Below, piece after piece: positions 20,808 through 42,595 of a stretch of DNA of 64,000 nucleotides (positions are counted from its first letter, which is position 1; each line of letters starts with the position of its first letter). The notes below the pieces were generated by a model. That model did not search any database and was not told where the DNA came from. It saw nothing but the letters and a program-made list of their open reading frames with translations. The DNA is from an uncultured Clostridia bacterium (GTDB lineage: Bacteria; Bacillota; Clostridia; Oscillospirales; Acutalibacteraceae). The position numbers and the translations under genes are program-made. The stretch covers positions 1 through 64,000 of the forward strand of contig CAMVEX010000005.1 in assembly GCA_947166625.1 (NCBI GenBank), in the 5' to 3' direction.

Positions 20808-20809
20808 TA

Positions 20810-22913: not shown

Positions 22914-24230
22914 ATGATTTCAAATTTATATCAAAAACTGATAAACAGAGAGGAAAAGCTCTCTCTCATAGGTCTCGGATATGTCGGTATGCCTATTGCC
23001 GTTGCGTTCGCGCAGAAGCTCGATGTGATAGGATATGACCTCAACGAGGAAAAGATCCGCCTTTACAAGAGCGGGATCGACCCTACCGGCGAGGTCGGCG
23101 ACGAGGCTGTCAAAAACACCTCGGTTTGTTTCACAGCCGATGAAACTCTCTTAAAACAGGCGAAGTTTCATATAGTCGCGGTGCCGACCCCTGTTAATGC
23201 GGATCACACTCCCGACCTCACTCCCGTTGAAGGCGCGAGCCGAATTCTCGGCAGAAACCTCACGCCCGGCAGTGTCGTTGTATATGAATCGACCGTTTAT
23301 CCCGGAGTTACGCAAGAGGTCTGTGTGCCTATTCTCGAAAAAGAATCGGGGCTCAGATGCGGCGAGGATTTCAAAATAGGTTATTCGCCCGAAAGGATCA
23401 ATCCGGGCGACAAGGTGCATCGGCTCGAGACTATCACAAAAATAGTCTCCGGTATGGATGCCGAAACTCTTGACTGCGTAGCCAAGGTGTATGAAACCGT
23501 CGTCAAGGCGGGAGTCCACAGGGCAGAGAGCATAAAGGTAGCCGAGGCGGCGAAGGTCATAGAAAACAGCCAGCGCGATATAAATATTGCCTTTATGAAT
23601 GAATTATCCATTATCTTCAATAAAATGGGGATAGATACAAAATCCGTGCTTGAGGCTGCGGGGACAAAATGGAATTTCCTTCATTTTTATCCCGGTCTTG
23701 TCGGCGGCCACTGCATCGGCGTCGATCCCTATTATCTCACTTACAAAGCCGAAATGCTCGGATATCACAGCCAGGTTATTCTTGCGGGCAGGCGAATAAA
23801 CGACGATATGGGCAGATATGTTGCAGAGAATACCGTTAAAAAGCTGATCGCCTGCGGCAAAAATGTCAGCGACGCAAAAGTTGCCATACTCGGCTTTACC
23901 TTCAAAGAAAACTGCCCCGATACCAGAAACACAAGGGTTATTGATATGTACAATGAACTGCGTGAATACGGCATCAATCCTGTCATTGCCGACCCCGTCG
24001 CCGATTCAGATGAGGCGAAGCGCCTTTACGCAACAGAGTTCCTTGATATCAAAGATATCAAAGACGCGGACGCCGTGATCCTCGCAGTCGCCCACAGAGA
24101 ATTCAGCGCTCTTACTCCCGCGGATACAGACAGAATGATGTCCGGCAGCGGTAAGGTAATGATTGATGTAAAAGGAATTCTCAATAAAGAAGAATTTGAA
24201 AGCGCCGGCTACCTCTATTGGAGGCTTTGA
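22914..24230 (+). CDS. Nucleotide-sugar dehydrogenase (WbpO/TviB-like UDP-HexNAc 6-dehydrogenase)
   Basis: A 438-residue UDP-glucose/GDP-mannose dehydrogenase-family enzyme that oxidises C6 of a UDP-N-acetylhexosamine to a uronic acid in two NAD-dependent steps. N-terminal SLIGLGYVGMPIAVAF; middle domain with EAAKVIENSQRDINIAFMNE; catalytic cysteine in GLVGGHCIGVDPYYL; C-terminal GFTFKENCPDTRNT. This form is typical of the WbpO/VipA group rather than Ugd. I use the ATG at 22914, with CGGGAG upstream. The epimerase that follows completes a TviB/TviC-like pair. Confidence 0.9.
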   Translation: MISNLYQKLINREEKLSLIGLGYVGMPIAVAFAQKLDVIGYDLNEEKIRLYKSGIDPTGEVGDEAVKNTSVCFTADETLLKQAKFHIVAVPTPVNADHTPDLTPVEGASRILGRNLTPGSVVVYESTVYPGVTQEVCVPILEKESGLRCGEDFKIGYSPERINPGDKVHRLETITKIVSGMDAETLDCVAKVYETVVKAGVHRAESIKVAEAAKVIENSQRDINIAFMNELSIIFNKMGIDTKSVLEAAGTKWNFLHFYPGLVGGHCIGVDPYYLTYKAEMLGYHSQVILAGRRINDDMGRYVAENTVKKLIACGKNVSDAKVAILGFTFKENCPDTRNTRVIDMYNELREYGINPVIADPVADSDEAKRLYATEFLDIKDIKDADAVILAVAHREFSALTPADTDRMMSGSGKVMIDVKGILNKEEFESAGYLYWRL

Positions 24231-24259
24231 TGAGTTTATCCGGTTCGGAGGTGTGAAAT

Positions 24260-25234
24260 TTGAATTACACTCAGCTTGAATTTCCCGAAAATTCCGTGTT
24301 TCTTGTTACCGGAGGAGCGGGATTTATCGGATCGAATCTCTGCGAAGCCATCCTCGGGCTCGGCCACAGGGTGAGGTGTCTTGACGATTTATCGACCGGC
24401 AAGCAAAAAAATGTCGATATATTCAAAGACGATCCCCGATATGAATTTATGCTCGGCGATATCAAGGATTTCGATACCTGTATGAAGGCCTGCGAGGGCG
24501 TTGATTATGTCCTCAACCAGGCGGCGTGGGGTTCGGTGCCCCGCAGCATCGAGATGCCGCTTTTTTACTGTGCAAATAATATTCAGGGCACCTTGAATAT
24601 GCTTGAGGCCGCAAGGCGCAGCGGTGTTAAAAAATTTGTCTATGCGTCGAGCTCGTCCGTTTACGGCGATGAGCCGCATCTGCCTAAAAAAGAGGGGACG
24701 GAGGGCAATCTGCTTTCGCCTTATGCGCTTACAAAGAGATGCGACGAGGAATGGGCGAAGCAATACACCCTGCATTACGGTCTTGACACATACGGTCTGA
24801 GGTATTTCAATGTTTTCGGCAGACGTCAGGATCCTGACGGAGCCTATGCGGCGGTAATACCCAAATTCATAAAAATGCTGCTCAGCGGCGAGAGACCCAA
24901 AATCAACGGCGACGGCAGGCAGAGCAGGGATTTTACATATATTGAAAATGTTGTTGAGGCTAATCTCAAGGCGTGCCTTGCCCCTCACGAAGCGGCGGGC
25001 GAAGCCTTCAATATCGCCTACGGCGGCAGGGAATACCTCATAGATATCTATTACGGGCTCACCAAAGCGCTCGGTGTCGATATCGAGCCGGAATTCGGCC
25101 CCGACAGACCGGGGGATATAAAGCACAGCAACGCCGATATTTCAAAAGCAAAGCGCCTGCTCGGATATTCGCCCGAATGGTCGTTTGAGCGCGGGATCGA
25201 GGCGGCGATCGAATGGTATAAGGAGAATCTTTGA
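24260..25234 (+). CDS. NAD-dependent sugar-nucleotide epimerase (TviC/WbpP-like)
   Basis: A 324-residue extended short-chain dehydrogenase. NAD motif GGAGFIGSNL, catalytic SSSSVYG and Y-x3-K (SPYALTKRCDE). With the preceding dehydrogenase it would interconvert UDP-GlcNAc(A) and UDP-GalNAc(A), as TviB/TviC do for Vi antigen. Start is TTG 24260 with CGGAGG upstream. Its last base overlaps the next start. Confidence 0.9.
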   Translation: MNYTQLEFPENSVFLVTGGAGFIGSNLCEAILGLGHRVRCLDDLSTGKQKNVDIFKDDPRYEFMLGDIKDFDTCMKACEGVDYVLNQAAWGSVPRSIEMPLFYCANNIQGTLNMLEAARRSGVKKFVYASSSSVYGDEPHLPKKEGTEGNLLSPYALTKRCDEEWAKQYTLHYGLDTYGLRYFNVFGRRQDPDGAYAAVIPKFIKMLLSGERPKINGDGRQSRDFTYIENVVEANLKACLAPHEAAGEAFNIAYGGREYLIDIYYGLTKALGVDIEPEFGPDRPGDIKHSNADISKAKRLLGYSPEWSFERGIEAAIEWYKENL

Positions 25235-26058
25235 TGAAGGAATACGGAAAGATTTCCGTTATTATGGGCATCTATAATTGCGAGAGCACTCTCGCCGAAG
25301 CGATAGATTCAATCATCGCTCAGACCTATCCCGATTGGGAACTGATACTCTGCGATGATTGCTCGGGCGACGGCACATACGCTCTCGCGAAGCAATATGC
25401 AGAAAAATATCCCGAAAAAATCATTCTCCTTAAAAATGAGACCAACTCAAAGCTCGCTTTTACTCTTAACCGCTGCCTCGAAAAGGCAACGGGCAGATAT
25501 ATCGCCCGGATGGACGGCGACGATAAGTGCCTTCCCGAAAGATTTGAAAAACAGCTTGAATATCTCGAAAGCAGACCGGATGCCGTGCTTGTCGGCACCG
25601 CGATGCAAAGATTTTATAATGACGGCAGGCTCGGAGCCGTTGCCTATTGCCCTTCCGAACCGGACAGATTCACTCCTCATAAAAACGGACCTTCTTTCAA
25701 TCATGCGACGATCCTCGCGTTCAAATCCGTTTTTGATGAGCTCGGAGGATACACCGTATGCCCGAGAACTGTGAGAGGGCAGGATCGCGACCTGTGGTTC
25801 CGCTTTTTTGCCGCGGGCTTCAAGGGCGTGAATATGCCGGATGCGCTTTACCTCGTAAGAGAAGATGTCGAGGCGGTAAAAAGGCGCACTTTCAAGGACA
25901 GATATATTTCTTTTCAGACCGAAATATACGGCTACAGGCTTCTCGGATATCCCAAAAACTGGTATATAATGCCGGTTTTACGGCTTTCAAAAGCGTTTGT
26001 TCCTCAGAAGCTTCAGCTGGTTTACCGCAGCTTACAGACCAAACTGCAAAACCGTTAA
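25234..26058 (+). CDS. Glycosyltransferase family 2
   Basis: A 274-residue GT-A enzyme. N-terminal SVIMGIYNCESTLAEAI, CDDCSGDGT and the metal-binding MDGDD, with GQDRDLWFR as the acceptor-side motif. It has no membrane helix. ATG 25234 overlaps the epimerase stop, with AAGGAG upstream. It is one of several chain-elongation enzymes; its donor is unknown. Confidence 0.9.
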   Translation: MKEYGKISVIMGIYNCESTLAEAIDSIIAQTYPDWELILCDDCSGDGTYALAKQYAEKYPEKIILLKNETNSKLAFTLNRCLEKATGRYIARMDGDDKCLPERFEKQLEYLESRPDAVLVGTAMQRFYNDGRLGAVAYCPSEPDRFTPHKNGPSFNHATILAFKSVFDELGGYTVCPRTVRGQDRDLWFRFFAAGFKGVNMPDALYLVREDVEAVKRRTFKDRYISFQTEIYGYRLLGYPKNWYIMPVLRLSKAFVPQKLQLVYRSLQTKLQNR

Positions 26059-26083
26059 ATTCATTGAAGGGAGAATACGGGTG

Positions 26084-27013
26084 ATGAAATCGGTATCAAA
26101 GCTTAAAAATCTGATAAAATCCAATGACTTTGCCCGTATTTTTATCGAGGAGCGCAAGCGAATAAAATACGGCAGACTTCTAAAAAAATACTCCGACAGA
26201 GAGTTTATTGAGATGCTCTATGAGCGCAATATCGGCAGGCGCCCCGATCTGGATGATCCAAAAACCTTTACGGAAAAACTTCAATGGCTTAAGCTCAATT
26301 ACCGCGATCCCGATATTCCGCTCGCTTCCGATAAATATGAGGCAAAAAAATACATTGAGCGCAGGGGATTCTCCGAGCTTCTTATACCGACCCTTGCCGT
26401 TTATGACAGCGCGGATGAGATAAATCCCGACGACCTTCCCGATGAATTTATCATCAAAGCAACTCACGGCAGCGGGTGGAATTTTATCTGCCGCGATAAA
26501 AAAAGCTTCAATCTGAAGGCAAAGAAAAAAGTGATGAATTCTTGGCTTCGCCAGAATCTCTATGTTTATGGCAGAGAATGGAATTATAAGGATCAGAAGC
26601 CGAGGCTTATTATCGAGCCGCTTATAGATGACAAACCGCTTGTCGATTATAAATTCCTTTGCTTCAACGGAAAATGCAAAGCCGTGCAGGTAAATCACGA
26701 TGACGGCGGAATTCATTATGTCGATTATTATGATGACGAATGGAATCTTTTCCCCGATATGGGCTCGGGAACAGCTCCGATTTTCGGCAGGCCGCTTGCA
26801 AAGCCCGCTGTTTTTGAAGAAATGAAAGCGATCGCTGAAAAAACAGCAGCGGATTTCCCTTTTGTAAGAGTTGATCTTTATGATGTCAACGGCAAAATTT
26901 ATTTCGGCGAAATGACATTTTTTCCCGGCAGCGGATTCTGGCACATCACCCCCGAAAAATATGATAATATGTTCGGCGAATGGCTTGAAATCAAGGAGTT
27001 AGTTGATGATTAA
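26084..27013 (+). CDS. TupA-like ATP-grasp protein (copy 1)
   Basis: A 309-residue protein of the TupA-like ATP-grasp family. Motifs: FTEKLQWLKLNYRDPDI, SDKYEAKKYI, the phosphate-binding EFIIKATHGSGWN, and the C-terminal metal-binding FVRVDLYDVNGKIYFGEMTF. TupA is linked to teichuronopeptide synthesis in Bacillus, and ATP-grasp enzymes form amide or ester bonds through acyl phosphates. A ligase that adds amino acids or peptides to uronic acids of the polymer fits. A GTG three bases earlier is an alternative start. A second copy lies at 39983. Confidence 0.85.
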   Translation: MKSVSKLKNLIKSNDFARIFIEERKRIKYGRLLKKYSDREFIEMLYERNIGRRPDLDDPKTFTEKLQWLKLNYRDPDIPLASDKYEAKKYIERRGFSELLIPTLAVYDSADEINPDDLPDEFIIKATHGSGWNFICRDKKSFNLKAKKKVMNSWLRQNLYVYGREWNYKDQKPRLIIEPLIDDKPLVDYKFLCFNGKCKAVQVNHDDGGIHYVDYYDDEWNLFPDMGSGTAPIFGRPLAKPAVFEEMKAIAEKTAADFPFVRVDLYDVNGKIYFGEMTFFPGSGFWHITPEKYDNMFGEWLEIKELVDD

Positions 27014-28124
27014 GACTGTAAAAAGAATTGAAAACTTCATCAATGATTTACCTGAAAAATTGTATTTGTTTAAGATTCTTTACAGCGAAAAAGCTGCAAT
27101 CAAGAAAAAAAGATCATTATTTTCTAATGTCAAATGGTCTGAAAGTCAGCAAAAGGAATTTGATGATTTTTGGGTTGAGAACTACGGTAAAAAGATTAAA
27201 CCTTATTGGAATAAGTTGTATGAAAGCATAAACGGGGTTTATCATTACGATTATTTTCCCGAAATACTGTATTCAACCGAACTTGAACCGTTGCTTAATC
27301 CTGCGGAATATTGTAAAGTATTCAGCGATAAAAGTTTGACGGAAATTGTTTACGGAAAGGTGTGCGGCGCTTTTTTTCCGGAGATGCTGCTTGCCAACTG
27401 TAATGGCAGTTTCATTGACGGTAACAGGTCGATGCTCAGCTTTGATGACGCTGTTAAATCTATATGTGAAGCAGGCAACTGTGTAATTAAGCCTACAGTC
27501 GAAACGGGCTCGGGCAAAGGAGTCCGTCTTTTGAATATCGTAAATGGCAAGGATTCGGCAACGGGAATTGAGACAGAAACGATAATTAAAAACTACTCTG
27601 AAAACTTTATTGTTCAGAGATTGATTAAAAACAGCAAAGCTCTTTCAAATCTAAATCCCGGTTCACTCAACACTTTCAGAGTCATCACATACATTGTCAA
27701 TGGGAAAATCAATGCCGCCCCCGTTTCATTAAGAATGGGAGTGGGTGACAGCGGTGTTGATAATATTCACAAAGGTGGTCTTGTTGCAGGAGTAAACGAA
27801 GACGGGACTCTGAAAAAATATGCCTATCAACTCGGCTACGGCGACAACTCAGCGAAGTTTACCAAACACCCGGACACAAATATAGTTTTTGAGAATTATT
27901 GTGTAGGCGATATAAAAAAATTGCTTTCAACAGCTATTAAACTTCATGAGACAACTCCGCAATTAGGCATTATTTCATGGGATCTGACCTTCGATGAAAA
28001 AGACAATGTTGTTTTGATTGAGGCAAATTGTAAAGAGCAGTCCGTTTGGTTTCCTCAGATAATCAACGGATGTTCGCTGTTTGGCGAGGACACACGATAT
28101 ATGATTAATAAAATCAGACATTAA
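27006..28124 (+). CDS. Sugar-transfer-associated ATP-grasp protein
   Basis: A 372-residue protein of the ATPgrasp_ST type. Nucleotide-binding CVIKPTVETGSGKGVRLL; GSLNTFRVITY; metal-binding IISWDLTFDEKDNVVLIEAN. The family is found in polysaccharide loci beside TupA and glycosyltransferases but its reaction is unknown. The gene is clearly more AT-rich than its upstream neighbours, which suggests separate acquisition. The start overlaps the preceding gene by 8 bp with AAGGAG in place. Confidence 0.85.
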   Translation: MIKTVKRIENFINDLPEKLYLFKILYSEKAAIKKKRSLFSNVKWSESQQKEFDDFWVENYGKKIKPYWNKLYESINGVYHYDYFPEILYSTELEPLLNPAEYCKVFSDKSLTEIVYGKVCGAFFPEMLLANCNGSFIDGNRSMLSFDDAVKSICEAGNCVIKPTVETGSGKGVRLLNIVNGKDSATGIETETIIKNYSENFIVQRLIKNSKALSNLNPGSLNTFRVITYIVNGKINAAPVSLRMGVGDSGVDNIHKGGLVAGVNEDGTLKKYAYQLGYGDNSAKFTKHPDTNIVFENYCVGDIKKLLSTAIKLHETTPQLGIISWDLTFDEKDNVVLIEANCKEQSVWFPQIINGCSLFGEDTRYMINKIRH

Positions 28125-28126
28125 AA

Positions 28127-29227
28127 ATGGAAAAGATAAAAATTCTTTTTATTCTTGAAAATCTGTCAGTGGGCGGAGCGGAAAGAGTACTTGTCAATTT
28201 GGTTAACAATATGGATTCTGAGCGATTTGATATTTCCGTTTTGACTCTGTTCAGCGACGGTCTGAATGCTGACAGTTTGAAAAAAAATATAAAATATATC
28301 TCATTAAAGCGTAAAAAGTTCAAAGGAATAAGACTGTTTACAAAGTTTTTTCCCAAAAGAATTCTGTATAGGCTTTATGTCAAAGAGGATGATTATGATA
28401 TTGTCGTTGCTTTTATGACAGGGGTTCCGACCTTTGTTGCTGCGGGGGCAAAATCAAAGAAAATCTCTTGGCTTCACGGTGAATTTTTTGAAAATAAAAA
28501 ATTATATAATTTCGGATTAAAATCGGTCTATAACAGATTTGATGCTGTTGCAGGTGTTTCGGATTTTGTATGCAACAGTTTCAAAAAAGCCATAGACCCG
28601 GTGACAGATCCCGTGACAGTTTATAACACCAATGATGTCAAAAAAATCAGAGACAGTGCCTCGGAGAAATTCTCGCTTCCCTTTGATAAAAAAGGCCCGC
28701 TGATTTGCTCTGTCGGAAGGCTTGTCAAAGAAAAGGGATTTGAAAGATTGATCTCAGCCGTTGTCAGGCTTCGCAGCGAAGTCCCCGGGCTTGAGCTTAT
28801 GCTTATCGGTGACGGTGAAGAGGCGGGACGGCTCAATTCCCTGATAAACGGATACGGCGCCGGCGAATATATACATCTTGTCGGCTTTGATATCAATCCT
28901 TACAAATATATGATTCGAAGCGATTATTTTGTCTGCTCATCATATACCGAAGGGCTTTCGACCGCCCTCACCGAGGCGGTAATTCTCGGGATGCCTTGTG
29001 TTTCGACCGATGTATCGGGCGCGAAAGAAATTCTCGGTGAAAATAATGAATTCGGAATAGTCACCGAAAACAGCGAGCAGGGGATTTATGAAGGAATGAA
29101 ACGCCTGCTCAAAGATGAAAAAATTGCGGAACATTACCGCAAAAAAGCGGAGGAACGCGCCGCGTTTTTTGATACTGAAAATACCGTTAAACAGGCGGAG
29201 GATCTTTTTCTTTCCCTTATGAACTAA
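28127..29227 (+). CDS. Glycosyltransferase family 4
   Basis: A 366-residue GT-B enzyme. N-terminal FILENLSVGGAERVLVNLVN, and the donor domain with SVGRLVKEKGFERLI, LIGDGEEAG, and SSYTEGLSTALTEAVILG followed by STDVSGAKEIL. The first half (28127 to about 28680) is AT-rich like the preceding ATP-grasp gene; the second half is noticeably GC-richer. In GT-B enzymes the N-terminal half usually binds the acceptor and the C-terminal half the nucleotide sugar, so a recombinant origin is possible. Confidence 0.9.
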   Translation: MEKIKILFILENLSVGGAERVLVNLVNNMDSERFDISVLTLFSDGLNADSLKKNIKYISLKRKKFKGIRLFTKFFPKRILYRLYVKEDDYDIVVAFMTGVPTFVAAGAKSKKISWLHGEFFENKKLYNFGLKSVYNRFDAVAGVSDFVCNSFKKAIDPVTDPVTVYNTNDVKKIRDSASEKFSLPFDKKGPLICSVGRLVKEKGFERLISAVVRLRSEVPGLELMLIGDGEEAGRLNSLINGYGAGEYIHLVGFDINPYKYMIRSDYFVCSSYTEGLSTALTEAVILGMPCVSTDVSGAKEILGENNEFGIVTENSEQGIYEGMKRLLKDEKIAEHYRKKAEERAAFFDTENTVKQAEDLFLSLMN

Positions 29228-29248
29228 AATGAAAGGAGTGACGGCTTA

Positions 29249-30424
29249 ATGATATTCTGGATAATGTTGATATGGATATTTGCCGTTACTCTTCTTTTTC
29301 AGCCGAAGCTCAGCAAAAAAGTGCTTGCCGGGGACGGGGTCGAAGATTATCACGCGGGCATCGGATTCGGTATTCTTGTTTTTTCTCTGCCGCTCTTTTT
29401 CATTGCCCTGCGGAGCGGGTTTATAGATACAGCCTCTTACATCGGTACTTTTAACCACGCCCCTACGGATATGCAGCTTTTTGATTCGTTCGTAAATAAA
29501 ACGGATAAATCATATTTCTTCTACGCACTGATGATGCTTTTTAAGGTCTATATCAGCGACAATGCCCAGTGGTGGATAGCGGCGATAGCGATTTTTCAGA
29601 CTGCTCTTGTAATGAGGACTTTCCGCAGATATTCATGCGATATGGGGCTTACCGTTTTCCTGTTTATGGCGTCGGGGATAGTCTGCAGCTGGATGTGCAA
29701 CGGGATCAGGCAGTTTATTGCCGTTGCAGTGATCTTTGCCTGCACTCAGTTTCTTATTGATAAAAAATGGTATATTTATGTGCCCGTCGTTTTGCTTATG
29801 ATGGGTCTGCTCCCGATAACCTCAAGATTCGGCTGGGAAACTCCTCCTTGGTATCTTTGCGGGGTGCATCAGTCAACTCTCGTTATGTTGCTCGGCTGCT
29901 TTTTTATCCAGGGCAAGGCTTTCAATAAGAGAGTGTGGATTCTTGCGGCGGTGTTTGTTGCCCTTGTCTTAACGGGAGGGCTTGATTCCGCTCTTGATAC
30001 ATCGGTCGAAAACACAACTTATGTAAAAGATATGGAGTATGTTGACGCCGATACCGGCACAAGCTGGTTCAGGGTAATCGTCGAATCCGTCCCGATGATA
30101 ATGGCGGTGATCGCGCATAAACAGTTCAAGAACGAAGACACACCGGATATCATCAATCTTGCCGTAAATGCTTCCGTCATCACCTCTGTGCTTTATATCG
30201 CCAGCGCCTTTACAAGCGGCATGTATGTCGGCAGGCTTCCGATTTTTACCGAAATGTATAATTTTATACTTGTTCCGTGGCTCATAAAGCATCCGTTCAA
30301 AAAATACCGGCAGATTTTAACTATAGTTTTTATACTCGGATATACCGCGTATTTTTTCTATCAGGTAAATATCGCCTGGGCAGAATCCGTATATCAAAGT
30401 GAACTGCTCGGAATAAATGTATAG
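29249..30424 (+). CDS. EpsG-like polysaccharide polymerase (Wzy-type)
   Basis: A 391-residue polytopic membrane protein with about ten helices. EpsG features: RSGFIDTASYIGTF near the N-terminus, FYALMMLFKVY, and the conserved NGIRQFIAVAVIFACTQ. EpsG/Wzy proteins join lipid-linked repeat units on the outer face. GAAAGGAG precedes the ATG. Its presence argues for a repeat-unit polymerisation route, which the two Wzz kinases would control. Confidence 0.85.
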   Translation: MIFWIMLIWIFAVTLLFQPKLSKKVLAGDGVEDYHAGIGFGILVFSLPLFFIALRSGFIDTASYIGTFNHAPTDMQLFDSFVNKTDKSYFFYALMMLFKVYISDNAQWWIAAIAIFQTALVMRTFRRYSCDMGLTVFLFMASGIVCSWMCNGIRQFIAVAVIFACTQFLIDKKWYIYVPVVLLMMGLLPITSRFGWETPPWYLCGVHQSTLVMLLGCFFIQGKAFNKRVWILAAVFVALVLTGGLDSALDTSVENTTYVKDMEYVDADTGTSWFRVIVESVPMIMAVIAHKQFKNEDTPDIINLAVNASVITSVLYIASAFTSGMYVGRLPIFTEMYNFILVPWLIKHPFKKYRQILTIVFILGYTAYFFYQVNIAWAESVYQSELLGINV

Positions 30425-30431
30425 GTGATTT

Positions 30432-31406: not shown

Positions 31407-31414
31407 GAGTATTT

Positions 31415-32389: not shown

Positions 32390-32391
32390 AT

Positions 32392-33354: not shown

Positions 33355-33363
33355 GGAGAAGAT

Positions 33364-34368: not shown

Positions 34369-34377
34369 GGTTTTGAT

Positions 34378-35013
34378 ATGGGTAACAGTATTATTGCCCG
34401 CGCCGAGCATAGGCTGTATATCGAGAATAAACGCAGAAGACTGAAAAATAAAGATTTCTCAATACTGTCAGATAACTGTAATTCGGGTATTATTCTTCAC
34501 GATCTTGGGCAGCGTTTTAATTCGCCGACCGTAAATTTATATTTTGAGCCTGCGGATTTTATCAAATTCCTTAAAAATCCGCAAAAGTATCTGAATGCCG
34601 ATCCGATTCAAACGGAATCAGACAAGCCTTTTCCGGTCGGTAAAATTGACGATATCACCGTATTCTTTATGCATTATCCCGATTTTAATAATGCGAGAGA
34701 ACAATGGAAGAAACGCTCTGCACGCGTAAATTTTGACAATCTGTTTGTAATGATGACCGATAAAAACGGCTGCGCTTATGAGCAGATCGCTGATTTTGAT
34801 TCCCTGCCTTATGCGCATAAGGTCATTTTTACACATAAACCATATCCCGAGTTTAGGAGTGCCTGCTGCATAAAAGGATTTGAAAATGACGGCGAGGTAG
34901 GAGTTCTCTCCGATTGGAAGCCCGGCTTTCTCAAGCGCAGATATCTCGATGATTTTGATTATGTATCCTTCTTGAATGGAGAAATTTATAATTTTTCGGA
35001 GTTTAACAGATGA
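34378..35013 (+). CDS. DUF1919-family polysaccharide protein
   Basis: A 211-residue protein of the DUF1919 type. Hallmarks: FSILSDNCNSGIILHDLG, FNSPTVNLYFEPADFIKFL and the acidic-aromatic YPDFNNAREQWKKRS. These proteins occur in capsule and exopolysaccharide loci; the reaction is unproven, although a transferase role is often assumed. Its stop overlaps the next start by 4 bp, tying it to the asparagine-synthetase-like gene. Confidence 0.85.
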   Translation: MGNSIIARAEHRLYIENKRRRLKNKDFSILSDNCNSGIILHDLGQRFNSPTVNLYFEPADFIKFLKNPQKYLNADPIQTESDKPFPVGKIDDITVFFMHYPDFNNAREQWKKRSARVNFDNLFVMMTDKNGCAYEQIADFDSLPYAHKVIFTHKPYPEFRSACCIKGFENDGEVGVLSDWKPGFLKRRYLDDFDYVSFLNGEIYNFSEFNR

Positions 35014-36581
35014 AAATACTGTCAGGATATTACGATTTAAAGACAAATGAATATACCGATTTGTCCCGCTGTATATATTCCTTTTCCGCTGATTCCCGTG
35101 AGTTGTTTGTGTTCGGCAGCGTTTATACCGGCACAGAGCGAAATGACGGCAAAAAAATACTTTCTCTTTATAGTGAGTATGGCAGGGAGATCACGGGATA
35201 TTTAAGCGGCAGCTATATTTTGCTTATTTATGATTCTGCGAAAAAAAACGTGCGCGTTTTTTATGACCGCGCGACCTCTCCCGTCGCATTTTATTATACG
35301 GTTGCCGATGACGGGATTTATATGTCAACTTCTCTCGGGGACTTGCTCGACAGATCGGCAATTGAGCGCTCTCTCAACGATGATGTCATTGAGGAATTTC
35401 TGCTTAACGGCTTTATTTACGGAAGCGAAACCCTGATTAAAAATGTAAAGAAGGCACAGGCATACCGCTTCCTTGAAATATCAAACGGCAGGCTTTCCGA
35501 GCATAAGGCCGAATATCCCCTGAAATCCTTTTCGCCCGGTGAAGCTCTTGAATCTTATGCCCGGTTACTCGATTCTGCGATAATCAAAACAGCAGGGGCG
35601 GATAAAGAGGTCAATTTGCCCCTTTCGAGCGGATACGATTCAAATTATATTGCCTATGTCATTACCGAAAAGGCAGGATGTAAAGCCAAGGCTTTTTCTG
35701 TCGGCGGTAAGCGCGGTAAAAACGAACTGCCTGTCGTTGAAGAAAACATAAAATACTATAGAAATCTTGAGCTCAAATCCGCAGTTACAGACGGTGATTC
35801 TCTCAAAAACCTGCCGGATATAGTTTTGCGGCTTGAGGGCAATGTGTATGAAAGCGGTATTTTCCTGCAATATGAGCTTATGAAGCTCGTTAAAAATTCC
35901 GGAGCCGATAAACTGATTTGCGGCGAATGTGCCGATCAGGTCATGAATCTTTATTACCATACCGCAGACAGAATCGACCCCGGCAGCATCGGCAAGCCGG
36001 TCTATTATGAATTCAGCGAATACCCCTATATTTTCAGCAGTTATCTTATTCTCAAAAAAAGCGGTATTCTTGCCAATTCATTCGGTATTGACACCGAATA
36101 TCCCTATCTCGATGAAGATTTTATTTCCGTCTGCGCACCGCTCGGCTTTATCAGCCGAAAAGATAAGCGGGTACATGTTGCCAACTGTTGCAAATGTCTT
36201 CCGCCCGAGATTGTCCGCAATATGAGCAAAAAAGGCGGATCGACCGATTGCCGTTCTCTGTTTGACAGCGATGATGAAATCAAACGGTTTTTCAAAAGAA
36301 TTGAGAAAAATCCGCTTTTCAGAAAATATTCCGATTATATTTTTAATAATGATGTTTTCAAAAAAGAGAAGCAGACCGGCATCACGCTTTTGAAAACAAA
36401 GGTCAGAAATCTTATCCTTGCCGCTTTGCGAATGAAAAAAGATGACCCTTATTTCATCGAGGTCAAACTCCGTCTTTATCTGTGCGCCGCTTATCTGATT
36501 ATTTTCAATGAACTTTTTGTCATTCGCGGCGGCAGTGATGAAGAATGCAAAAATCTTACTTTTGATGATATAGTCAAATAA
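35010..36581 (+). CDS. Asparagine-synthetase-like amide ligase without the glutaminase cysteine
   Basis: A 523-residue protein with the two-domain plan of AsnB. The N-terminal half keeps the fold (GSYILLIYDSAKKNVRVFYD) but starts MKILSGYY, with no Cys2, so glutamine hydrolysis is not expected. The synthetase half has the PP-loop LSSGYDSNYIAY at about 205-216 (usual SGGxDS), ICGECADQVM and the Y-P-Y-L-D element. AsnB-like WbpS amidates a uronic acid in Pseudomonas O-antigen. Here free ammonia or an amino group from another molecule may be the nucleophile (inference). Confidence 0.85.
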   Translation: MKILSGYYDLKTNEYTDLSRCIYSFSADSRELFVFGSVYTGTERNDGKKILSLYSEYGREITGYLSGSYILLIYDSAKKNVRVFYDRATSPVAFYYTVADDGIYMSTSLGDLLDRSAIERSLNDDVIEEFLLNGFIYGSETLIKNVKKAQAYRFLEISNGRLSEHKAEYPLKSFSPGEALESYARLLDSAIIKTAGADKEVNLPLSSGYDSNYIAYVITEKAGCKAKAFSVGGKRGKNELPVVEENIKYYRNLELKSAVTDGDSLKNLPDIVLRLEGNVYESGIFLQYELMKLVKNSGADKLICGECADQVMNLYYHTADRIDPGSIGKPVYYEFSEYPYIFSSYLILKKSGILANSFGIDTEYPYLDEDFISVCAPLGFISRKDKRVHVANCCKCLPPEIVRNMSKKGGSTDCRSLFDSDDEIKRFFKRIEKNPLFRKYSDYIFNNDVFKKEKQTGITLLKTKVRNLILAALRMKKDDPYFIEVKLRLYLCAAYLIIFNELFVIRGGSDEECKNLTFDDIVK

Positions 36582-36599
36582 AAATCGGGAGAGCTTTTT

Positions 36600-37481
36600 G
36601 TGAGCAATAATAAATACACTGAAATTGACAATCTGCAATTTGATACCGTCGTTGAGCCGAAAAACAAGCTTTTTGATTTGGATGTCAAAGAGTTGTGGAA
36701 ATACCGGGATTTGATTTTTCTTTTTGTCAAAAGGAATTTCATATCGCAATATAAGCAGACCGTGCTCGGCCCCGCGTGGGCGGTCATTCAGCCGCTGCTT
36801 ACCACAGTTGTATTCACCATTATTTTCGGTAATGTCGCAGGGCTTGCCCCGGGCGGTGTAAACAGCTTTGTCTATTATCTTTGCGGCACGATTTTCTGGC
36901 AGTATTTTGCATCGTGCCTCACCATGGTGAGCAATACATTTACGGGCAATTCCCATATCTTCGGCAAGGTCTATTTTCCCAGAATGGTCCTGCCCGTTTC
37001 AACGGTCATCACAAATCTGATATCTCTCGGCATACAGTTTTTTTTCTTCATTGTTGCCTGGGTGATCTTTATGTTTGTGCCCGGCTATTCGATGAGCCCG
37101 GGATGGCAGATCCTTCTTTTGCCGCTTATGCTTGTTGAACTTGCCCTGCTTGCGCTTGGCTGCGGGATCGTCATTTCCGCACTTACGACAAAATACCGCG
37201 ATCTCGCGATGCTTGTTTCGTTCGGAGTTCAGCTTTGGATGTATGCAACTCCCGTCGCTTATGCCGCGGATATGTTCAGCGGCTCAAAAATTGAATTTAT
37301 TTATTGGCTTAATCCGACCTGCCCGGTGATCGAAACGATCCGCTATGCCTTTCTCGGCTCTTCTGCGGCGCAGTTCCGCCCGGTAATGTGGGGGATAAGC
37401 TGGATTACAACATTTGTCATTTTGTGTATCGGCATCCTCCTCTTCAGCAAAGTCGAAAAAACATTTATGGATACGGTGTGA
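36600..37481 (+). CDS. ABC-2 polysaccharide exporter permease (Wzm/TagG-like)
   Basis: A 293-residue permease with six membrane helices and the family segment LFVKRNFISQYKQTVLGPAW near the N-terminus. With the Wzt-like ATPase two genes on it forms an exporter for long undecaprenyl-linked polymer. The start is a GTG with CGGGAG upstream. The two subunits are separated by one glycosyltransferase, which is uncommon. Confidence 0.92.
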   Translation: MSNNKYTEIDNLQFDTVVEPKNKLFDLDVKELWKYRDLIFLFVKRNFISQYKQTVLGPAWAVIQPLLTTVVFTIIFGNVAGLAPGGVNSFVYYLCGTIFWQYFASCLTMVSNTFTGNSHIFGKVYFPRMVLPVSTVITNLISLGIQFFFFIVAWVIFMFVPGYSMSPGWQILLLPLMLVELALLALGCGIVISALTTKYRDLAMLVSFGVQLWMYATPVAYAADMFSGSKIEFIYWLNPTCPVIETIRYAFLGSSAAQFRPVMWGISWITTFVILCIGILLFSKVEKTFMDTV

Positions 37482-37482
37482 T

Positions 37483-38685
37483 ATGAAACATATAATTATT
37501 GTTATCCACACTCTTGCTGTCGGCGGGGCGGAAAGACGGATTTCGACCCTTGCAAATTTTATGGCACGGCAGGGTCACAAAGTATCAATTCTGCTTATTG
37601 ACAATCCGACCGTTGACTTTCCGATAGACCCGGATATAAATATTTTGTGCACAAATCAGAATCTGCAGTTTGACGGATGTGAGAGGAAAAACTGTGATTT
37701 ATTCAGGCCCGGAAAGTCTTTCCACACATCCTTTTCGGATAATTTGCGCTTGCGTAAGGCGCGTCTCAAGGGCTGTGAGTCTGCCTCATTTGTCGAAACC
37801 GAGCTTTTCGTAAAGTACAAATATGCTTTGCCTTTGTATGAGTATATAAGACAGTTTCCCGATGCTGTGATCGTATCGTTTATGACAATTTCGAATATCT
37901 CGCTGATGATGGCGGCTCAAAGCCTTAAAAACAGGGTCGTTTTCGGAGATTGCACCGATGTTGCAAACGAATATCCGGAGGGCTCACCATACAACGATTT
38001 GCGTAAAAAGTATTATTCACGCGCTGATGCGGCGTTGCTTCAGACCGATGTTCAAAGCGCTTATTATTCTTTTTTGCCCGGTCTTAAAAAGAATGTAATA
38101 CCCAATTTTATAAAAAGTGATCATTTTCCCGAGCGGTTTGAAGGAAAGCGCAGGAAAGAAATTGTCAATTTCTGCCGGCTGAGCCCGGCGAAAAATCTGC
38201 CTCTTTTGATAGATGCGTTTGCGCTTCTTAACAGAGATTATCCGGAATATACTCTTTCAATTTACGGCGAGGGTGAGTTAAAAGAGAGCCTGACCGAAAA
38301 AATCTCTTCTCTCAATCTCAAAAAGAGCGTTTTTATCCATGATTTTGATTTGAATATTCATTCAAAAATCGTTGATTCCGCCATGTTTGTTTCTTCATCG
38401 GACAGAGAGGGTATTTCAAATTCAATGCTTGAGGCGATGGCCATAGGCTTGCCGTGTGTTTGTACGGATTGTCTCGGCGGCGGAGCGCGTATGATGATTG
38501 AAGACGGCAAAAACGGTCTGCTTGTTCCTATGAATAATGCAAAAGCTCTTTATTTTGCCATGAAAAAAATAATCGAAAACCCGGATTTGGCAGAGAGGAT
38601 CTCACGAAACGCTGTAAAAATCCGAGAACGGCTTGAGCCGGAAAAAATCTGCGAACTGATGCTTTCTGCAATAACAGGTGAATGA
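37483..38685 (+). CDS. Glycosyltransferase family 4
   Basis: A 400-residue GT-B enzyme with IIIVIHTLAVGGAERRISTL, VNFCRLSPAKNLPLLIDAF, LSIYGEGELKE, and SSSDREGISNSMLEAMAIG followed by CTDCLGGGARMMIEDGKNG. The start at 37483 follows the permease stop by one base, so it is translationally coupled. Its place between Wzm and Wzt suggests that it acts near the end of chain synthesis. Confidence 0.9.
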   Translation: MKHIIIVIHTLAVGGAERRISTLANFMARQGHKVSILLIDNPTVDFPIDPDINILCTNQNLQFDGCERKNCDLFRPGKSFHTSFSDNLRLRKARLKGCESASFVETELFVKYKYALPLYEYIRQFPDAVIVSFMTISNISLMMAAQSLKNRVVFGDCTDVANEYPEGSPYNDLRKKYYSRADAALLQTDVQSAYYSFLPGLKKNVIPNFIKSDHFPERFEGKRRKEIVNFCRLSPAKNLPLLIDAFALLNRDYPEYTLSIYGEGELKESLTEKISSLNLKKSVFIHDFDLNIHSKIVDSAMFVSSSDREGISNSMLEAMAIGLPCVCTDCLGGGARMMIEDGKNGLLVPMNNAKALYFAMKKIIENPDLAERISRNAVKIRERLEPEKICELMLSAITGE

Positions 38686-38700
38686 TAAAAGGAAAAAACT

Positions 38701-39996
38701 ATGAATGACCTTGCAATCAGAATTGAACATGTTTCCAAGCAATACCGTTTGGGTGCGATAGGCGGAGGAACTTTGAAAGGCGATATTCAGTCCTTTATTG
38801 CCCGCCGCAGGGGAGAGGAGGATCCGAACAGCAAAATCGGCTCCGATTCCGCTTATCACAAAAACGAGAAATTTCTGGCGCTTGACGATGTATCTTTTGA
38901 TGTTAAAAAAGGCGAGATAGTCGGTATAATCGGCCACAACGGAGCCGGTAAATCAACGCTTCTGAAGCTGCTTTCGCGTGTTACCGCCCCCACAAGCGGC
39001 AGGATCGGAATAAACGGCCGTATCGCGTCTATGCTTGAGGTCGGTACGGGTTTTCATCCCGAGCTGACCGGTCGCGAAAATGTTTATATGAACGGTGCCA
39101 TTCTCGGTATGACAAAAGCGGAAATCTCCGCTAAGTTTGATGAAATTGTCAAATTTGCCGAGATGGAAAAATTCATTGACACACCCGTTAAAAGATACTC
39201 AAGCGGCATGTATGTCAAGCTTGCTTTCGCCGTCGCGGCTCACCTTGACAGTGAGATCATGGTTATGGATGAAGTGCTCGCCGTCGGCGATATGAAGTTT
39301 CAGGATAAGTGCCTCGGCAAAATGAGCGACGTTTCCAATCAGGAGGGCAGGACCGTCCTTTATGTCAGCCATAATATGAGCACGATCAAACGCCTCTGTA
39401 ACCGCTGCATAGTTCTTGACCGAGGTAAGGTCGTATTTGACGGGGATGTTAACGACGCTGTAAATATTTATTTGCAAAACGGAAAAGTAGAAAAGAAAAC
39501 ATTTTATTCGTTTGAAAACACAGAGCATAAAGACTATTATTTGCGTCAGATTAAAATGCTGTCAAATGAAGTTTTAAACACCAAAGACTGTGTTTTCAAA
39601 ATTGGTGAAAAAATTAAATGCAAACTGAAGTGCCATTCCGATTGTGAAGAAAGCGGTGTCAGACTCAGAGTGGAAATAATAAATAAGTCTGATGTTGTAA
39701 CAGGAATACTATTTTCCGATGTTTTACCGACCTTTTCAAAAAATGAGACTTTAGATGTTAATTTTGAAATTGATACTTCTCAATTTATGAACGGTAATTA
39801 TCATGCGCAGTTTGTGTTATTTAAAATAAATAACTACGGAATTACTGAAACAATAGATTTTATCAAAGGCGCTATGGCATTTGATATCTTCAGTCCTACA
39901 AACGAAGATAATATGGAGTGGTTTCCTCAATATGGCGGCGCTTCAAGACTAAAAGATTTATCAGTAACAGGAATCAATAAATATGAAAATAGGTAA
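38701..39996 (+). CDS. ABC polysaccharide exporter ATPase with C-terminal carbohydrate-binding domain (Wzt-like)
   Basis: A 431-residue ATPase. Walker A GHNGAGKSTLLKLLSR, LTGRENVYMNGAILGM, signature YSSGMYVKLAFAVA and Walker B IMVMDEVLAVGD fill about 1-255. Residues from about 265 form a Wzt_C-like beta-sandwich, which in O9a-type systems binds the modified chain end before export. The base composition becomes clearly AT-rich from about 39480, where this second domain starts. The last 14 bp overlap the next gene. Confidence 0.92.
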   Translation: MNDLAIRIEHVSKQYRLGAIGGGTLKGDIQSFIARRRGEEDPNSKIGSDSAYHKNEKFLALDDVSFDVKKGEIVGIIGHNGAGKSTLLKLLSRVTAPTSGRIGINGRIASMLEVGTGFHPELTGRENVYMNGAILGMTKAEISAKFDEIVKFAEMEKFIDTPVKRYSSGMYVKLAFAVAAHLDSEIMVMDEVLAVGDMKFQDKCLGKMSDVSNQEGRTVLYVSHNMSTIKRLCNRCIVLDRGKVVFDGDVNDAVNIYLQNGKVEKKTFYSFENTEHKDYYLRQIKMLSNEVLNTKDCVFKIGEKIKCKLKCHSDCEESGVRLRVEIINKSDVVTGILFSDVLPTFSKNETLDVNFEIDTSQFMNGNYHAQFVLFKINNYGITETIDFIKGAMAFDIFSPTNEDNMEWFPQYGGASRLKDLSVTGINKYENR

Positions 39997-40933
39997 GATT
40001 ATTCCACGACCCTTAAAAAACTTAATACTCAGGATTGTCCGTATTCCCGAAAGAATAAAAGTTAAAATTTACAAAGCGGCGTCTCTGGGCAAAATACCTT
40101 TTCCGGATAAGGCCTTTCAAAAATGGGATTATAAAATCCACACGGGAAGGAAGCTTAATCTGCGCCATCCCGTCACTTTTCAGGAAAAGCTTCAATGGAT
40201 GAAGTACTATTACAGAAATCCCGAATTGACACGGCTTGTGGACAAATATGAAGTTCGTGACTATGTCAGAGAAAAAATCGGGGAGGAATACCTTGTTCCT
40301 CTTTACGGAGTTTATGACGGATGGGAAGAAATCGACTTTTCCACTCTGCCTAACGAGTTTGTTATCAAGTGCACCCACGACAGCGGAAGCGTTGTAATTT
40401 GCACAGATAAAAATTCTTTTGATTTTGAATCTGCAAGAAAGAAAATCGAGGCGGGCCTTGCACGAAACCAGTTTTATCTCAGCCGTGAGTGGCCTTATAA
40501 AAATGTCAAGCCGAGGATCATTATCGAGAAATACCTTAAAGATATGGCGACAGATGATTTGCCCGATTACAAGTTCTTCTGCTTTGAAGGAAAAGTTAGA
40601 ATACTGGAATCAAACACGGAAAGGCAGAGCTCAACCGGGACGAAAACAGATTTTTATACATCTGACTTTGAATTGATAAAGATGAGAGAAAAAGGGTATC
40701 CAAACAGCAATAAAATTCACTCTAAACCAACTAAATTTGAAGAAATGAAACAATTTGCTGAGCTCTTATCTTCAAATTACCCTTTTCTAAGAGTGGATTT
40801 TAACTACGCCGATAATTCTTTTTATTTTGGAGAATTAACGCTGTATCATTGCGGTGGCAGAATGTTGTTTGAACCCGATGAATATAACAAGATGTTGGGA
40901 GATATGATTAGCTTACCTGAAAAAATCAGATAG
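39983..40933 (+). CDS. TupA-like ATP-grasp protein (copy 2)
   Basis: A 316-residue relative of the protein at 26084. Shared motifs: FQEKLQWMKYYYRNPELT, VDKYEVRDYVREK, EFVIKCTHDSGSVVIC, KPRIIIEKYL and FLRVDFNYADNSFYFGELTL. It keeps about 60 extra N-terminal residues. Its last third is AT-rich like the following gene. Two TupA-like copies in one locus suggest two amide or ester decorations, or two positions for one decoration (inference). Confidence 0.87.
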   Translation: MKIGKIIPRPLKNLILRIVRIPERIKVKIYKAASLGKIPFPDKAFQKWDYKIHTGRKLNLRHPVTFQEKLQWMKYYYRNPELTRLVDKYEVRDYVREKIGEEYLVPLYGVYDGWEEIDFSTLPNEFVIKCTHDSGSVVICTDKNSFDFESARKKIEAGLARNQFYLSREWPYKNVKPRIIIEKYLKDMATDDLPDYKFFCFEGKVRILESNTERQSSTGTKTDFYTSDFELIKMREKGYPNSNKIHSKPTKFEEMKQFAELLSSNYPFLRVDFNYADNSFYFGELTLYHCGGRMLFEPDEYNKMLGDMISLPEKIR

Positions 40934-40952
40934 CCTAAGATCAGTAAATAAT

Positions 40953-42020
40953 ATGATTAAAGTTTTTAGTGAAATATATAAAATTAAAGATGAATGGAAT
41001 GCTCTGTTTTCTTCGAATGATGAATTGTCTGTTTATCAGTCGTTTTCATGGAATGAGAATCTATTCTCTCGATATAAATTATTAAGAACAGACAGAAAAA
41101 GATTCTCTGTAATTTTTCTATTATACTATGATGATGCAGATCAATTGAAAATAATTGCACCCTTATCTATACCCCAAAACACAGATGATTCTATTATTAT
41201 TTTTGGCGGAGGTACCAAAACGGGTATTTTGAATTTTGTTTATTCAAATGATGTGAAGAATAGTGATTTTATTTCAGTATTTAACTATTTGTTTGAAAGT
41301 TATCCAAATCAAAAAATAGCCTTGAGAGAAGTACCGAGGGAAACAAAACTGGGGCGCTTTCTTGGTAAAAGCAGTCAATTTACATTGTTCTTTAACCGCG
41401 GCAGCGTTAGATGTGCCGTGCCAAACAGTAAAGATGAGTTGTTGAAAAGTTTGTCAAAGAGCGTTAGGCAAACAATTAGGACAAGCTATAACAGAATGAA
41501 AAGGAACGAAGTTGAATCCAAACTTGTAATTGATTATGGCTATCATTTTTGTATCAGCGAAAAGAGAAAATTGAATGACTTACAAATAGAGAGAAAAAGG
41601 CACTGGGGTTATAAAATAGATAATGAAGATGCAAACCTAATTATGAAAACAAAGCAATTATTCAGAGACATCATTACTGACCCCATTTTTAGGTATTCAG
41701 GCAACAAAGAATTTACTTATGTCAGATTTTATATCGGTAATGAAATTGCTGCATATTTTTTTGGACTAAGAAACGAAGTCGGTTATTGCATAGTTCCTAC
41801 TCTCATACATAATGTTAAATTTAAGGAATATAACCCCGGGTTGTTGATGATTTTTGAATTTTTAAATAAGATGATAGAAACCAAGGAAATTAAAGTCTTT
41901 GATTTGTCTAGAGGCGTTGATGAATACAAAATGAGATATTTACCTAATCCGGAAATATATGACCAAGATATGTTTGATTGCGAAAACAACAAAAAACACA
42001 GTTTGCTTGATTTGACTTGA
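40953..42020 (+). CDS. GNAT/FemAB-like acyltransferase (Acetyltransf_6 / CelD type)
   Basis: A 355-residue double-GNAT-fold protein. It has the basic helix SLSKSVRQTIRTSYNRMKR and, near the end, the acyl-donor region GLLMIFEFLNKMIETKEIKVFDLSRGVDEYKMRY (abridged from about 300). Such proteins acylate sugars in polysaccharide loci, or add amino acids in FemX-type enzymes. It could N-acylate the amino sugar made by the early genes. This is the most AT-rich gene of the operon, and composition recovers sharply in the next gene. Confidence 0.8.
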   Translation: MIKVFSEIYKIKDEWNALFSSNDELSVYQSFSWNENLFSRYKLLRTDRKRFSVIFLLYYDDADQLKIIAPLSIPQNTDDSIIIFGGGTKTGILNFVYSNDVKNSDFISVFNYLFESYPNQKIALREVPRETKLGRFLGKSSQFTLFFNRGSVRCAVPNSKDELLKSLSKSVRQTIRTSYNRMKRNEVESKLVIDYGYHFCISEKRKLNDLQIERKRHWGYKIDNEDANLIMKTKQLFRDIITDPIFRYSGNKEFTYVRFYIGNEIAAYFFGLRNEVGYCIVPTLIHNVKFKEYNPGLLMIFEFLNKMIETKEIKVFDLSRGVDEYKMRYLPNPEIYDQDMFDCENNKKHSLLDLT

Positions 42021-42031
42021 CTAAATAACCT

Positions 42032-42577
42032 ATGTTCTACTACATCTACCGAATTCCTTTACCGATTACGGTCATAATAATTGCCGCTGCGGTTGTCGGG
42101 TGGGCGCTCATTATGCGCTTTTCGGCGCGGCGCGGTGCGGCGGCGGTCAGGGCAATAAACATTATTCTTGTTTTTATTGCCCTGGGCGGGATACTTTATA
42201 TCACCCTTCATCACCGCCTGCCGGGTCAGCGTGAGCTGATCCTTATGCCGTTTCACTCTTTTATTGAGGCGAAGGCGGAGCGTGAAATGTATCGCGAAAT
42301 GCTGATGAATTTGTTTCTTTTTGTTCCGCTCGGCGTGACGATGCCTTTTGCGCTGCTTAAAAACGGCGTTCCCGCTTCCTCTCAGCGGCTTAAAAACATC
42401 CTTGTAACAGTTGCCTTTGCCCTTATTCTCTCGCTTGCAATTGAGTCGATACAGTATTTTTTCGCTCTGGGCAGAGCCGAGACCGATGATGTGATCTGCA
42501 ACACCTCGGGAGCGCTTGCAGGCATTCTCTCTTTTACGATATATTCCGCCTGCGGCAAACGCAATAATGATCATTGA
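42032..42577 (+). CDS. VanZ-family membrane protein
   Basis: A 181-residue protein with four or five membrane helices and VanZ hallmarks: NLFLFVPLGVTMPF, then LAIESIQYFFALGRAETDDVICNTSGALAG. VanZ domains are tied to glycopeptide tolerance and polysaccharide loci, but the biochemical role is unknown. The ribosome site is weak. A second VanZ domain follows 18 bp later. Confidence 0.9.
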   Translation: MFYYIYRIPLPITVIIIAAAVVGWALIMRFSARRGAAAVRAINIILVFIALGGILYITLHHRLPGQRELILMPFHSFIEAKAEREMYREMLMNLFLFVPLGVTMPFALLKNGVPASSQRLKNILVTVAFALILSLAIESIQYFFALGRAETDDVICNTSGALAGILSFTIYSACGKRNNDH

Positions 42578-42595
42578 CTTGTTAACTTTATCGAA

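Follow-up and report, generated by a model that had tools for sequence, protein, structure and literature searches.

Can several ligases act on one and the same bacterial surface polymer? The question is raised by a 64,000-nt stretch of DNA from an uncultured Clostridia bacterium (the whole of which is called the window here), where 18 open genes, all on the + strand and separated by gaps of at most 30 bases or by small overlaps, occupy positions 22914–42020. They include a nucleotide sugar dehydrogenase/epimerase pair, two TupA-like ATP-grasp ligase genes (TupA1 and TupA2), a third ATP-grasp gene of the ATPgrasp_ST type, an AsnB-like gene, and genes for a DUF1919 protein and a FemAB-like acyltransferase, together with seven glycosyltransferases, an EpsG-like polymerase and a Wzm/Wzt-type ABC exporter pair. 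We conclude, with a probability of roughly 0.6, that the operon serves the synthesis and export of a surface polysaccharide bearing an amide-decorated N-acetylhexosamine (HexNAc) uronic acid, most likely N-acetylgalactosaminuronic acid (GalNAcA). The original prediction, made from the letters of the DNA, had proposed a uronic acid polymer of this kind; the synthesis of the acid and the ligation by TupA-type enzymes stood up to the analysis, the former by family membership and the latter by precedent and co-occurrence, but a WbpS-like role of the AsnB-like protein and the placing of ATPgrasp_ST and the FemAB-like protein in the core did not.

Predicted uronic acid synthesis and the TupA-like ligases

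Families were assigned by Pfam and NCBIfam searches against curated cut-offs, with 31 proteins of the window operon scanned with Pfam; comparison genomes carry G-numbers and fetched loci L-numbers. The best NCBIfam match of the dehydrogenase was TviB with 467.6 bits, under the equivalog cut-off of 592, for which reason it is called TviB-like rather than TviB here, and it passed the cut-off for nucleotide sugar dehydrogenases in general (384.7 vs 189.8). The epimerase matched TviC best (290.4 bits, the top score among 25 of 26 matching families, under an equivalog cut-off of 760). Both enzymes are closely conserved in G015, G1050 and G1032 (79–81% identity for the dehydrogenase, 87–88% for the epimerase), and family membership thus supports the proposed synthesis of a HexNAc uronic acid by this pair.

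Both TupA proteins of the window score far above the PF14305 cut-off (Table 1), and an alignment of 25 TupA rows including them contains 37 invariant columns; a search of solved structures found no relative of either. Two reports describe Cj1438C of Campylobacter, a TupA-like ATP-grasp protein, as a demonstrated amidoligase acting on glucuronate (GlcA), which forms an ATP-dependent amide at C6 of GlcA, in glycosides or a chain disaccharide, with serinol phosphate or ethanolamine phosphate as the amine (PMC11800397, PMC11800379). According to the first of these, UDP-GlcA is not accepted (PMC11800397), and consecutive action has been proposed for linked ligases (PMC4431377). By analogy, UDP-sugars are probably not the substrates of the window ligases either, and since Cj1438C does not take UDP-GlcA, the assay with UDP-HexNAcA suggested in the original prediction would probably fail.

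Co-occurrence of TupA with nucleotide sugar dehydrogenases

TupA loci were collected by scanning genome contigs with 14 TupA rows, and the best 80 of at least 575 relatives, belonging to many phyla, were kept. Control loci, each built around a priming transferase (PF02397), came one per genome, with 40 in the window's family and a further 31 in its class, and were picked by hand down the ranked list wherever the left side had room. A nucleotide sugar dehydrogenase was detected in 36 of the 80 best TupA loci with a profile (35 with a single-sequence search), compared with 4/40 family and 4/31 class controls. When only loci with full flanks were counted and TupA-free controls were used, it lay within about 10 kb in 27/49 TupA loci vs 6/56 controls (3/32 in the family and 3/24 in the class; Fisher p = 2e-6). 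The difference persisted when two or more recognised glycosyltransferases were required on both sides (21/34 vs 2/16, p = 0.002), and also when three or more were (14/21 vs 1/9, p = 0.014). Dehydrogenases close to the TviB type occur near TupA in four of the best 80 loci (L053, L054, L064 and L086) and in the family TupA loci of G015, G003, G026 and G073, a distant one being present in G017. Ligases residing mostly in dehydrogenase-free loci, which the original prediction had named as the outcome that would speak against it, were hence not what we saw for TupA, although 22 of the 49 full-flank loci have no dehydrogenase in those flanks. Together with the Cj1438C precedent, this co-occurrence supports amide ligation of the TupA type.

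Several observations weigh against this conclusion, beginning with those 22 loci and with the scores of both sugar enzymes, which stay below the equivalog cut-offs of TviB and TviC. Where four or more glycosyltransferases were recognised, the comparison gave 3/6 TupA vs 0/5 control loci (p = 0.18), the sole TupA-bearing control locus (L280) has no dehydrogenase, and within the window's own family 5/13 TupA loci vs 4/40 controls have one (p = 0.03), several of these 13 loci being cut by contig ends. Taxa were incompletely matched, as the TupA loci are the multi-phylum top by similarity and the controls are strong PF02397 matches of one family and one class, and the dehydrogenase profile was built partly on the TupA loci themselves. 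In 31 of the 35 TupA loci having a dehydrogenase the enzyme is distant from the TviB type (E 5e-7 to 7e-27). The fetched stretches of G431 hold the dehydrogenase/epimerase pair yet no TupA was found in them, and no TupA match was obtained in the whole genome of G037 (230 contigs, 91% complete) despite its dehydrogenase, epimerase, DUF1919 and AsnB-like genes. Finally, the window operon showed no recognisable supplier of amines apart from the DegT-like gene.

The TupA loci lacking a dehydrogenase in their flanks also favour the opposite direction of ligation, in which the ligases would activate the carboxyls of amino acids and join them to sugar amines exposed by the PIG-L and DegT-like enzymes, giving N-aminoacyl amino sugars. 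ATP-grasp chemistry permits either direction, and PIG-L, WbqC and DegT-like genes belong to the core in the window, G015, G1050 and G1032. However, the TupA-like enzyme that has been assayed, Cj1438C, uses a sugar carboxylate and an amine, and dehydrogenases are enriched near TupA, so that we regard N-aminoacylation as unlikely but not negligible.

Conservation of the locus and the DUF1919 context

An alignment search with the AsnB-like protein over 398 genomes of the family (E 1e-40) identified only five carriers: the window genome, G015 and G1050 of the same genus, and G037 and G1032 of other genera; among 398 genomes of the phylum, only the window's own was found at E 1e-60. Viral contig scans gave no relatives of the AsnB-like or DUF1919 proteins. 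G015 retains the whole gene order with some insertions, synteny extends over a single contig in G1032 and over two in G1050, while G037 carries only some of these genes, split between two fragments. The same order recurs in G015, G1050 and G1032, so the arrangement is more than chance. The core shared by these three and the window comprises PIG-L, PglC, WbqC, DegT-like, the first GT4, dehydrogenase, epimerase, TupA1, EpsG, the GT2 genes, DUF1919, AsnB-like, Wzm, Wzt, TupA2 and VanZ; the DegT-like gene is conserved in G037 and G1009 as well. Accessory genes among the four loci are ATPgrasp_ST and PglF (both in the window and G015, PglF giving no tblastn match in the fetched operon stretches of G1050 and G1032) and the FemAB-like gene (window only). 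A hexapeptide acyltransferase lies between Wzt and TupA2 in G015 and G1050 (Pfam) and in G1032 (by eye). Among other genomes of the genus, the dehydrogenase/epimerase pair is present in the fetched stretches of G431, G959 and G1009, where no AsnB-like or DUF1919 match was found, and TupA is matched in those of G959 and G1009; in G896 no dehydrogenase of this type was found at 1e-100, nor was an AsnB-like gene.

The position after TupA2 is occupied by different genes in the four syntenic loci: the FemAB-like gene in the window, a diaminobutyrate–2-oxoglutarate transaminase (EctB type) starting 6 bases past TupA2 in G015, a fucosyltransferase with a fucose kinase/pyrophosphorylase in G1050, and nucleotide sugar genes in G1032. 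Because its contents differ in this way, the position resembles a cassette that serves variable decoration. The G015 transaminase exceeds the NCBIfam cut-offs of PRK09264 (576.6 vs 438) and TIGR00709 (442.1 vs 401.6) and stays just under that of TIGR02407 (545.4 vs 552.2), and the neighbouring ORFs (open reading frames) that were read included no ectoine genes.

DUF1919 was found in 5/100 family and 6/291 class genomes, the window's own being counted in both. It accompanies the AsnB-like gene in all five carriers of the latter and stands directly upstream of it in four. In G037 (L041:4753-7583) it lies between the dehydrogenase and epimerase genes; as this genome gave no TupA match, the AsnB-like and DUF1919 genes accompany those for the uronic acid even where TupA was not found. 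In fetched loci without an AsnB-like gene, DUF1919 adjoins TupA in G076 and lies two genes away from it in L082. Among solved structures, a profile search returned the uncharacterised relative 2g6t, and two papers place DUF1919 in capsule or exopolysaccharide clusters with no function given.

These data also bear on the simplest alternative, an ordinary acidic exopolysaccharide operon whose TupA-like, AsnB-like and DUF1919 proteins have nothing to do with amides and are, for example, transferases. DUF1919 is indeed without known function, and four of the five class DUF1919 loci lack both TupA and dehydrogenase in the fetched 20 kb; on the other side, the ligase motifs are kept and a precedent for TupA exists, which makes this alternative improbable in our estimate.

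Amine and peptide genes near TupA in other genomes

Candidate suppliers of amines accompany TupA elsewhere. An EctB gene follows TupA in the Prevotella contig L099 and exceeds the PRK09264, TIGR02407 and TIGR00709 cut-offs, L052 has an alanine racemase near TupA, and the Bacteroidales locus L082 (6067-14698) has TupA in three copies, accompanied by DUF1919, a HAD phosphatase and a pair of class I aminotransferases, a set resembling the Campylobacter serinol genes. Two aminotransferases of control loci, L145 and L152, were rejected as EctB, being matches of a drifted profile (L152 is ArgD-like, and L145 matches no NCBIfam family at 1e-80).

A cluster of PGA_cap-type genes (17 ORFs, of which the two tested with Pfam were PGA_cap, PF09587) lies at most two genes from TupA in 16 of the 80 loci (L046, L047, L062, L064, L073, L074, L081, L086, L089, L091, L095, L099, L100, L115, L117 and L120). 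The corresponding profile matched 17/80 TupA loci, 1/40 family controls (p = 0.006) and 0/31 class controls, and also two of the TupA loci of the window's family, which suggests a wide partnership of TupA with PGA_cap resembling teichuronopeptide synthesis. The ligases of the window could accordingly be thought to link or extend a polyglutamate-like chain on a uronic acid polymer, as the teichuronopeptide of Bacillus halodurans is described as poly-gamma-L-glutamate with polyglucuronate (PMC8153356). Since neither PGA_cap nor a polyglutamate synthesis gene was recognised among the 31 scanned proteins of the window operon, such a conjugate appears quite improbable here.

The AsnB-like protein

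In an alignment of the five AsnB-like orthologues and three canonical AsnB proteins of the same family, the canonical ones all begin with MCG and carry HRGPD and NGEIYN. In all five orthologues Cys2 and both motifs are absent and the glutaminase half is shorter by about 55–60 residues, while the SSGYDS PP-loop is kept and the Lys of NMSK(K/I)GG, which we take to be the catalytic one, aligns with the canonical Lys. With Cys2 and the glutaminase motifs lost throughout, the protein should not use glutamine in the usual way, and the alignment makes a glutaminase-dead amide synthetase likelier than a glutamine-dependent enzyme of the WbpS type. WbpS of Pseudomonas aeruginosa is an Asn_synthase-type protein found alongside HexNAc uronic acid genes, and the original prediction had accordingly regarded the AsnB-like protein as amidating the uronic acid with glutamine nitrogen; the domain and the neighbouring uronic acid genes agree with this, but the only N-terminal cysteines noted (position 5 in G1050, positions 8 and 9 in G1032) are off the canonical place, and we rejected WbpS-like amidation as very improbable.

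A dead glutaminase half with an Asn_synthase domain, as seen here, is the combination of beta-lactam-synthetase-like enzymes. Beta-lactam and carbapenam synthetases are AsnB-fold relatives from secondary metabolism that have lost the glutaminase function and make an amide from an adenylated carboxylate; beta-lactam synthetase uses an amine other than glutamine nitrogen and has a Tyr/Glu pair. No beta-lactam synthetase was among the listed solved structures that the AsnB-like protein matched. We tentatively put forward, as a possibility that is by no means the likeliest outcome, that the AsnB-like protein and DUF1919 together represent a carbohydrate amide synthetase of a new, adenylating type, which would perform amine joining or ring closure on the HexNAc uronic acid and thereby contribute to a zwitterionic polysaccharide with two unrelated ligase chemistries per chain. 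If so, the window polymer would also bear amides made by TupA, whose amines in a sister species would include basic amino acids (2,4-diaminobutyrate, for example), and G037, having the pair and the uronic acid genes with no TupA match, would represent a simpler form.

Proposed pathway

Taking the amide-decorated uronic acid polymer as the preferred explanation, the dehydrogenase and epimerase would make UDP-GlcNAcA and UDP-GalNAcA, and the glycosyltransferases would put the uronic acid into the growing chain. TupA1 and TupA2 may then activate the C6 carboxylate with ATP and join a small amine to it, as Cj1438C does. The amine would depend on the species, being probably 2,4-diaminobutyrate in G015. 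The AsnB-like protein is probably a third amide-forming enzyme, adenylating a carboxylate and taking free ammonia or another amine in the manner of beta-lactam synthetase, and ATPgrasp_ST and the FemAB-like protein could serve as accessories that add a second ligation or an acyl cap.

Accessory ATPgrasp_ST and FemAB-like genes

The original prediction included ATPgrasp_ST and the FemAB-like protein in its gene set, but they are present in only 2/4 and 1/4 of the syntenic loci, respectively. ATPgrasp_ST is common in the window's family (31/100 genomes above the cut-off), and in 20 other family loci, hand-picked and some of them contig-cut, profiles detected neither a dehydrogenase nor TupA nor a priming transferase; a role as general uronic acid ligase was rejected on the absence of dehydrogenase and TupA there. 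A narrower link holds, as 13 of the 80 best TupA loci contain ATPgrasp_ST (14 ORFs), and since no more than about 300 bases separate it from TupA in 10 of the 14 listed rows, the TupA1–ATPgrasp_ST tandem of the window is recurrent. The FemAB-like protein has one Acetyltransf_6 match (residues 255–326; score in Table 1), and its best hit among solved structures had an E of only 0.55.

Outside polysaccharide loci, an EctB-type transaminase lies within about 0.5 kb (L242:7650-10446) and about 1.4 kb (L238:6882-10605) of ATPgrasp_ST, both enzymes exceeding the NCBIfam cut-offs of PRK09264, TIGR02407 and TIGR00709. These two loci possibly represent a separate diaminobutyrate ligase module. A third ATPgrasp_ST locus, L249, has an EctB match by an iterated profile that also caught non-EctB aminotransferases.

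Organization of the operon

All genes named in the original prediction are present in one tight + strand operon according to ORFs, Pfam and NCBIfam, and the operon proved larger than had been described, with closely spaced genes on the same strand from at least 10233 to 44263 (Table 1). Its upstream part begins with genes for CpsB, an Ig-like protein, Wzz/AAA_31, a second AAA_31 and an ABC transporter, continues with PglF, PIG-L, the PglC type, WbqC, DegT-like and GT4, and two VanZ genes stand at the downstream end. The operon encodes a polymerase of the EpsG kind as well as an ABC exporter of Wzm/Wzt type, which represent two export logics that are usually mutually exclusive.

Table 1. Genes of the window operon from PglF to the VanZ genes
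Feature	Position	Strand	Evidence	Status
PglF/CapD-like UDP-HexNAc 4,6-dehydratase	16746..18710	+	Pfam Polysacc_synt_2, 384 bits	accessory
PIG-L family deacetylase	18729..19424	+	Pfam PF02585	core; present in G015, G037, G1050, G1032
PglC/WcaJ-type priming sugar-phosphate transferase	19440..20087	+	Pfam PF02397, NCBIfam	core
WbqC-like protein	20103..20807	+	Pfam PF08889, 213 bits	core
DegT-like PLP aminotransferase	20804..21769	+	0 Pfam families, named by eye	core
GT4 glycosyltransferase	21766..22899	+	Pfam	core
TviB/WbpO-like UDP-HexNAc 6-dehydrogenase	22914..24230	+	Pfam UDPG_MGDP_dh (three domains), NCBIfam best TviB	core
TviC-like UDP-HexNAcA 4-epimerase	24260..25234	+	Pfam Epimerase, NCBIfam best TviC	core
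GT2 glycosyltransferase	25231..26058	+	Pfam	
TupA1, TupA-like ATP-grasp ligase	26075..27013	+	Pfam PF14305, 182.6 bits (cut-off 25)	core of four syntenic loci
ATPgrasp_ST ligase, overlaps TupA1	27003..28124	+	Pfam PF14397, 168.2 bits (cut-off 31.4)	accessory
GT4 glycosyltransferase	28127..29227	+	Pfam	
EpsG-like polymerase	29249..30424	+	Pfam PF14897	core
Four consecutive GT2 glycosyltransferases	30432..34368	+	Pfam	
DUF1919 protein	34378..35013	+	Pfam PF08942, 240.8 bits (cut-off 25)	core
AsnB-like amide synthetase (putative), shortened glutaminase half	35010..36581	+	Pfam PF00733 Asn_synthase, 60.2 (cut-off 21)	core
Wzm-like ABC-2 exporter permease	36600..37481	+	Pfam	core
GT4 glycosyltransferase	37486..38685	+	Pfam	
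Wzt-like ABC exporter ATPase, C-terminal extension	38701..39996	+	Pfam, NCBIfam	core
TupA2, TupA-like ATP-grasp ligase	39983..40933	+	Pfam PF14305, 223.3 bits (cut-off 25)	core of four syntenic loci
GNAT/FemAB-like acyltransferase	40953..42020	+	Pfam PF13480 Acetyltransf_6, 31.0 (cut-off 22)	accessory
VanZ protein, then VanZ/NTP_transf_5 fusion	42032..44263	+	Pfam	core

Comparison with known systems

The dehydrogenase and epimerase belong to the same families as TviB/TviC of the Vi capsule and the WbpO/WbpP-type enzymes of UDP-GalNAcA synthesis, with scores below the equivalog cut-offs. To our knowledge, the Vi capsule system has no such ligases, and we know of no AsnB-like, DUF1919 or ATPgrasp_ST protein in the HS:2 capsule system of C. 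jejuni. The latter (Cj1438C, Cj1435–Cj1437) shares with the window a TupA-like ATP-grasp protein in a uronic acid locus and ABC export, and its amide is added once the sugar has joined the chain, as proposed here; it differs in using GlcA rather than a HexNAc uronic acid, in the fusion of the ligase to a GT2, and in its serinol or ethanolamine phosphate amines (PMC11800379, PMC11800397). The teichuronopeptide of B. halodurans (tupA) likewise shares a ligase of the TupA family and a uronic acid polymer, but it has a polyglutamate partner and GlcA, and polyglutamate genes were not recognised in the window operon (PMC8153356). The O3 antigen of Proteus mirabilis, where galacturonic acid (GalA) is amidated with lysine, is a uronic acid amide with a basic amino acid in a Gram-negative O-antigen (PMC7767033). 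The AsnB-like protein differs from P. aeruginosa WbpS in having neither the glutaminase nucleophile nor the motifs.

No paper on this gene set was found in the open-licence literature, judged by titles and the beginnings of abstracts. When its uronic acids carry amides, an acidic coat becomes neutral or zwitterionic, and hosts, phages and antibodies recognise the cell differently. The locus allows the action of several ligases on a single polymer to be tested; the rare AsnB subfamily comes with a clear biochemical prediction, and the context of DUF1919 is narrowed beyond capsule and exopolysaccharide clusters. The chemistry of amidated uronic acid polysaccharides is known from a few bacteria, and the tool set found here, with a glutaminase-less relative of AsnB, is a new combination, in which the apparently glutaminase-dead AsnB-like protein and its DUF1919 partner are the most interesting part.

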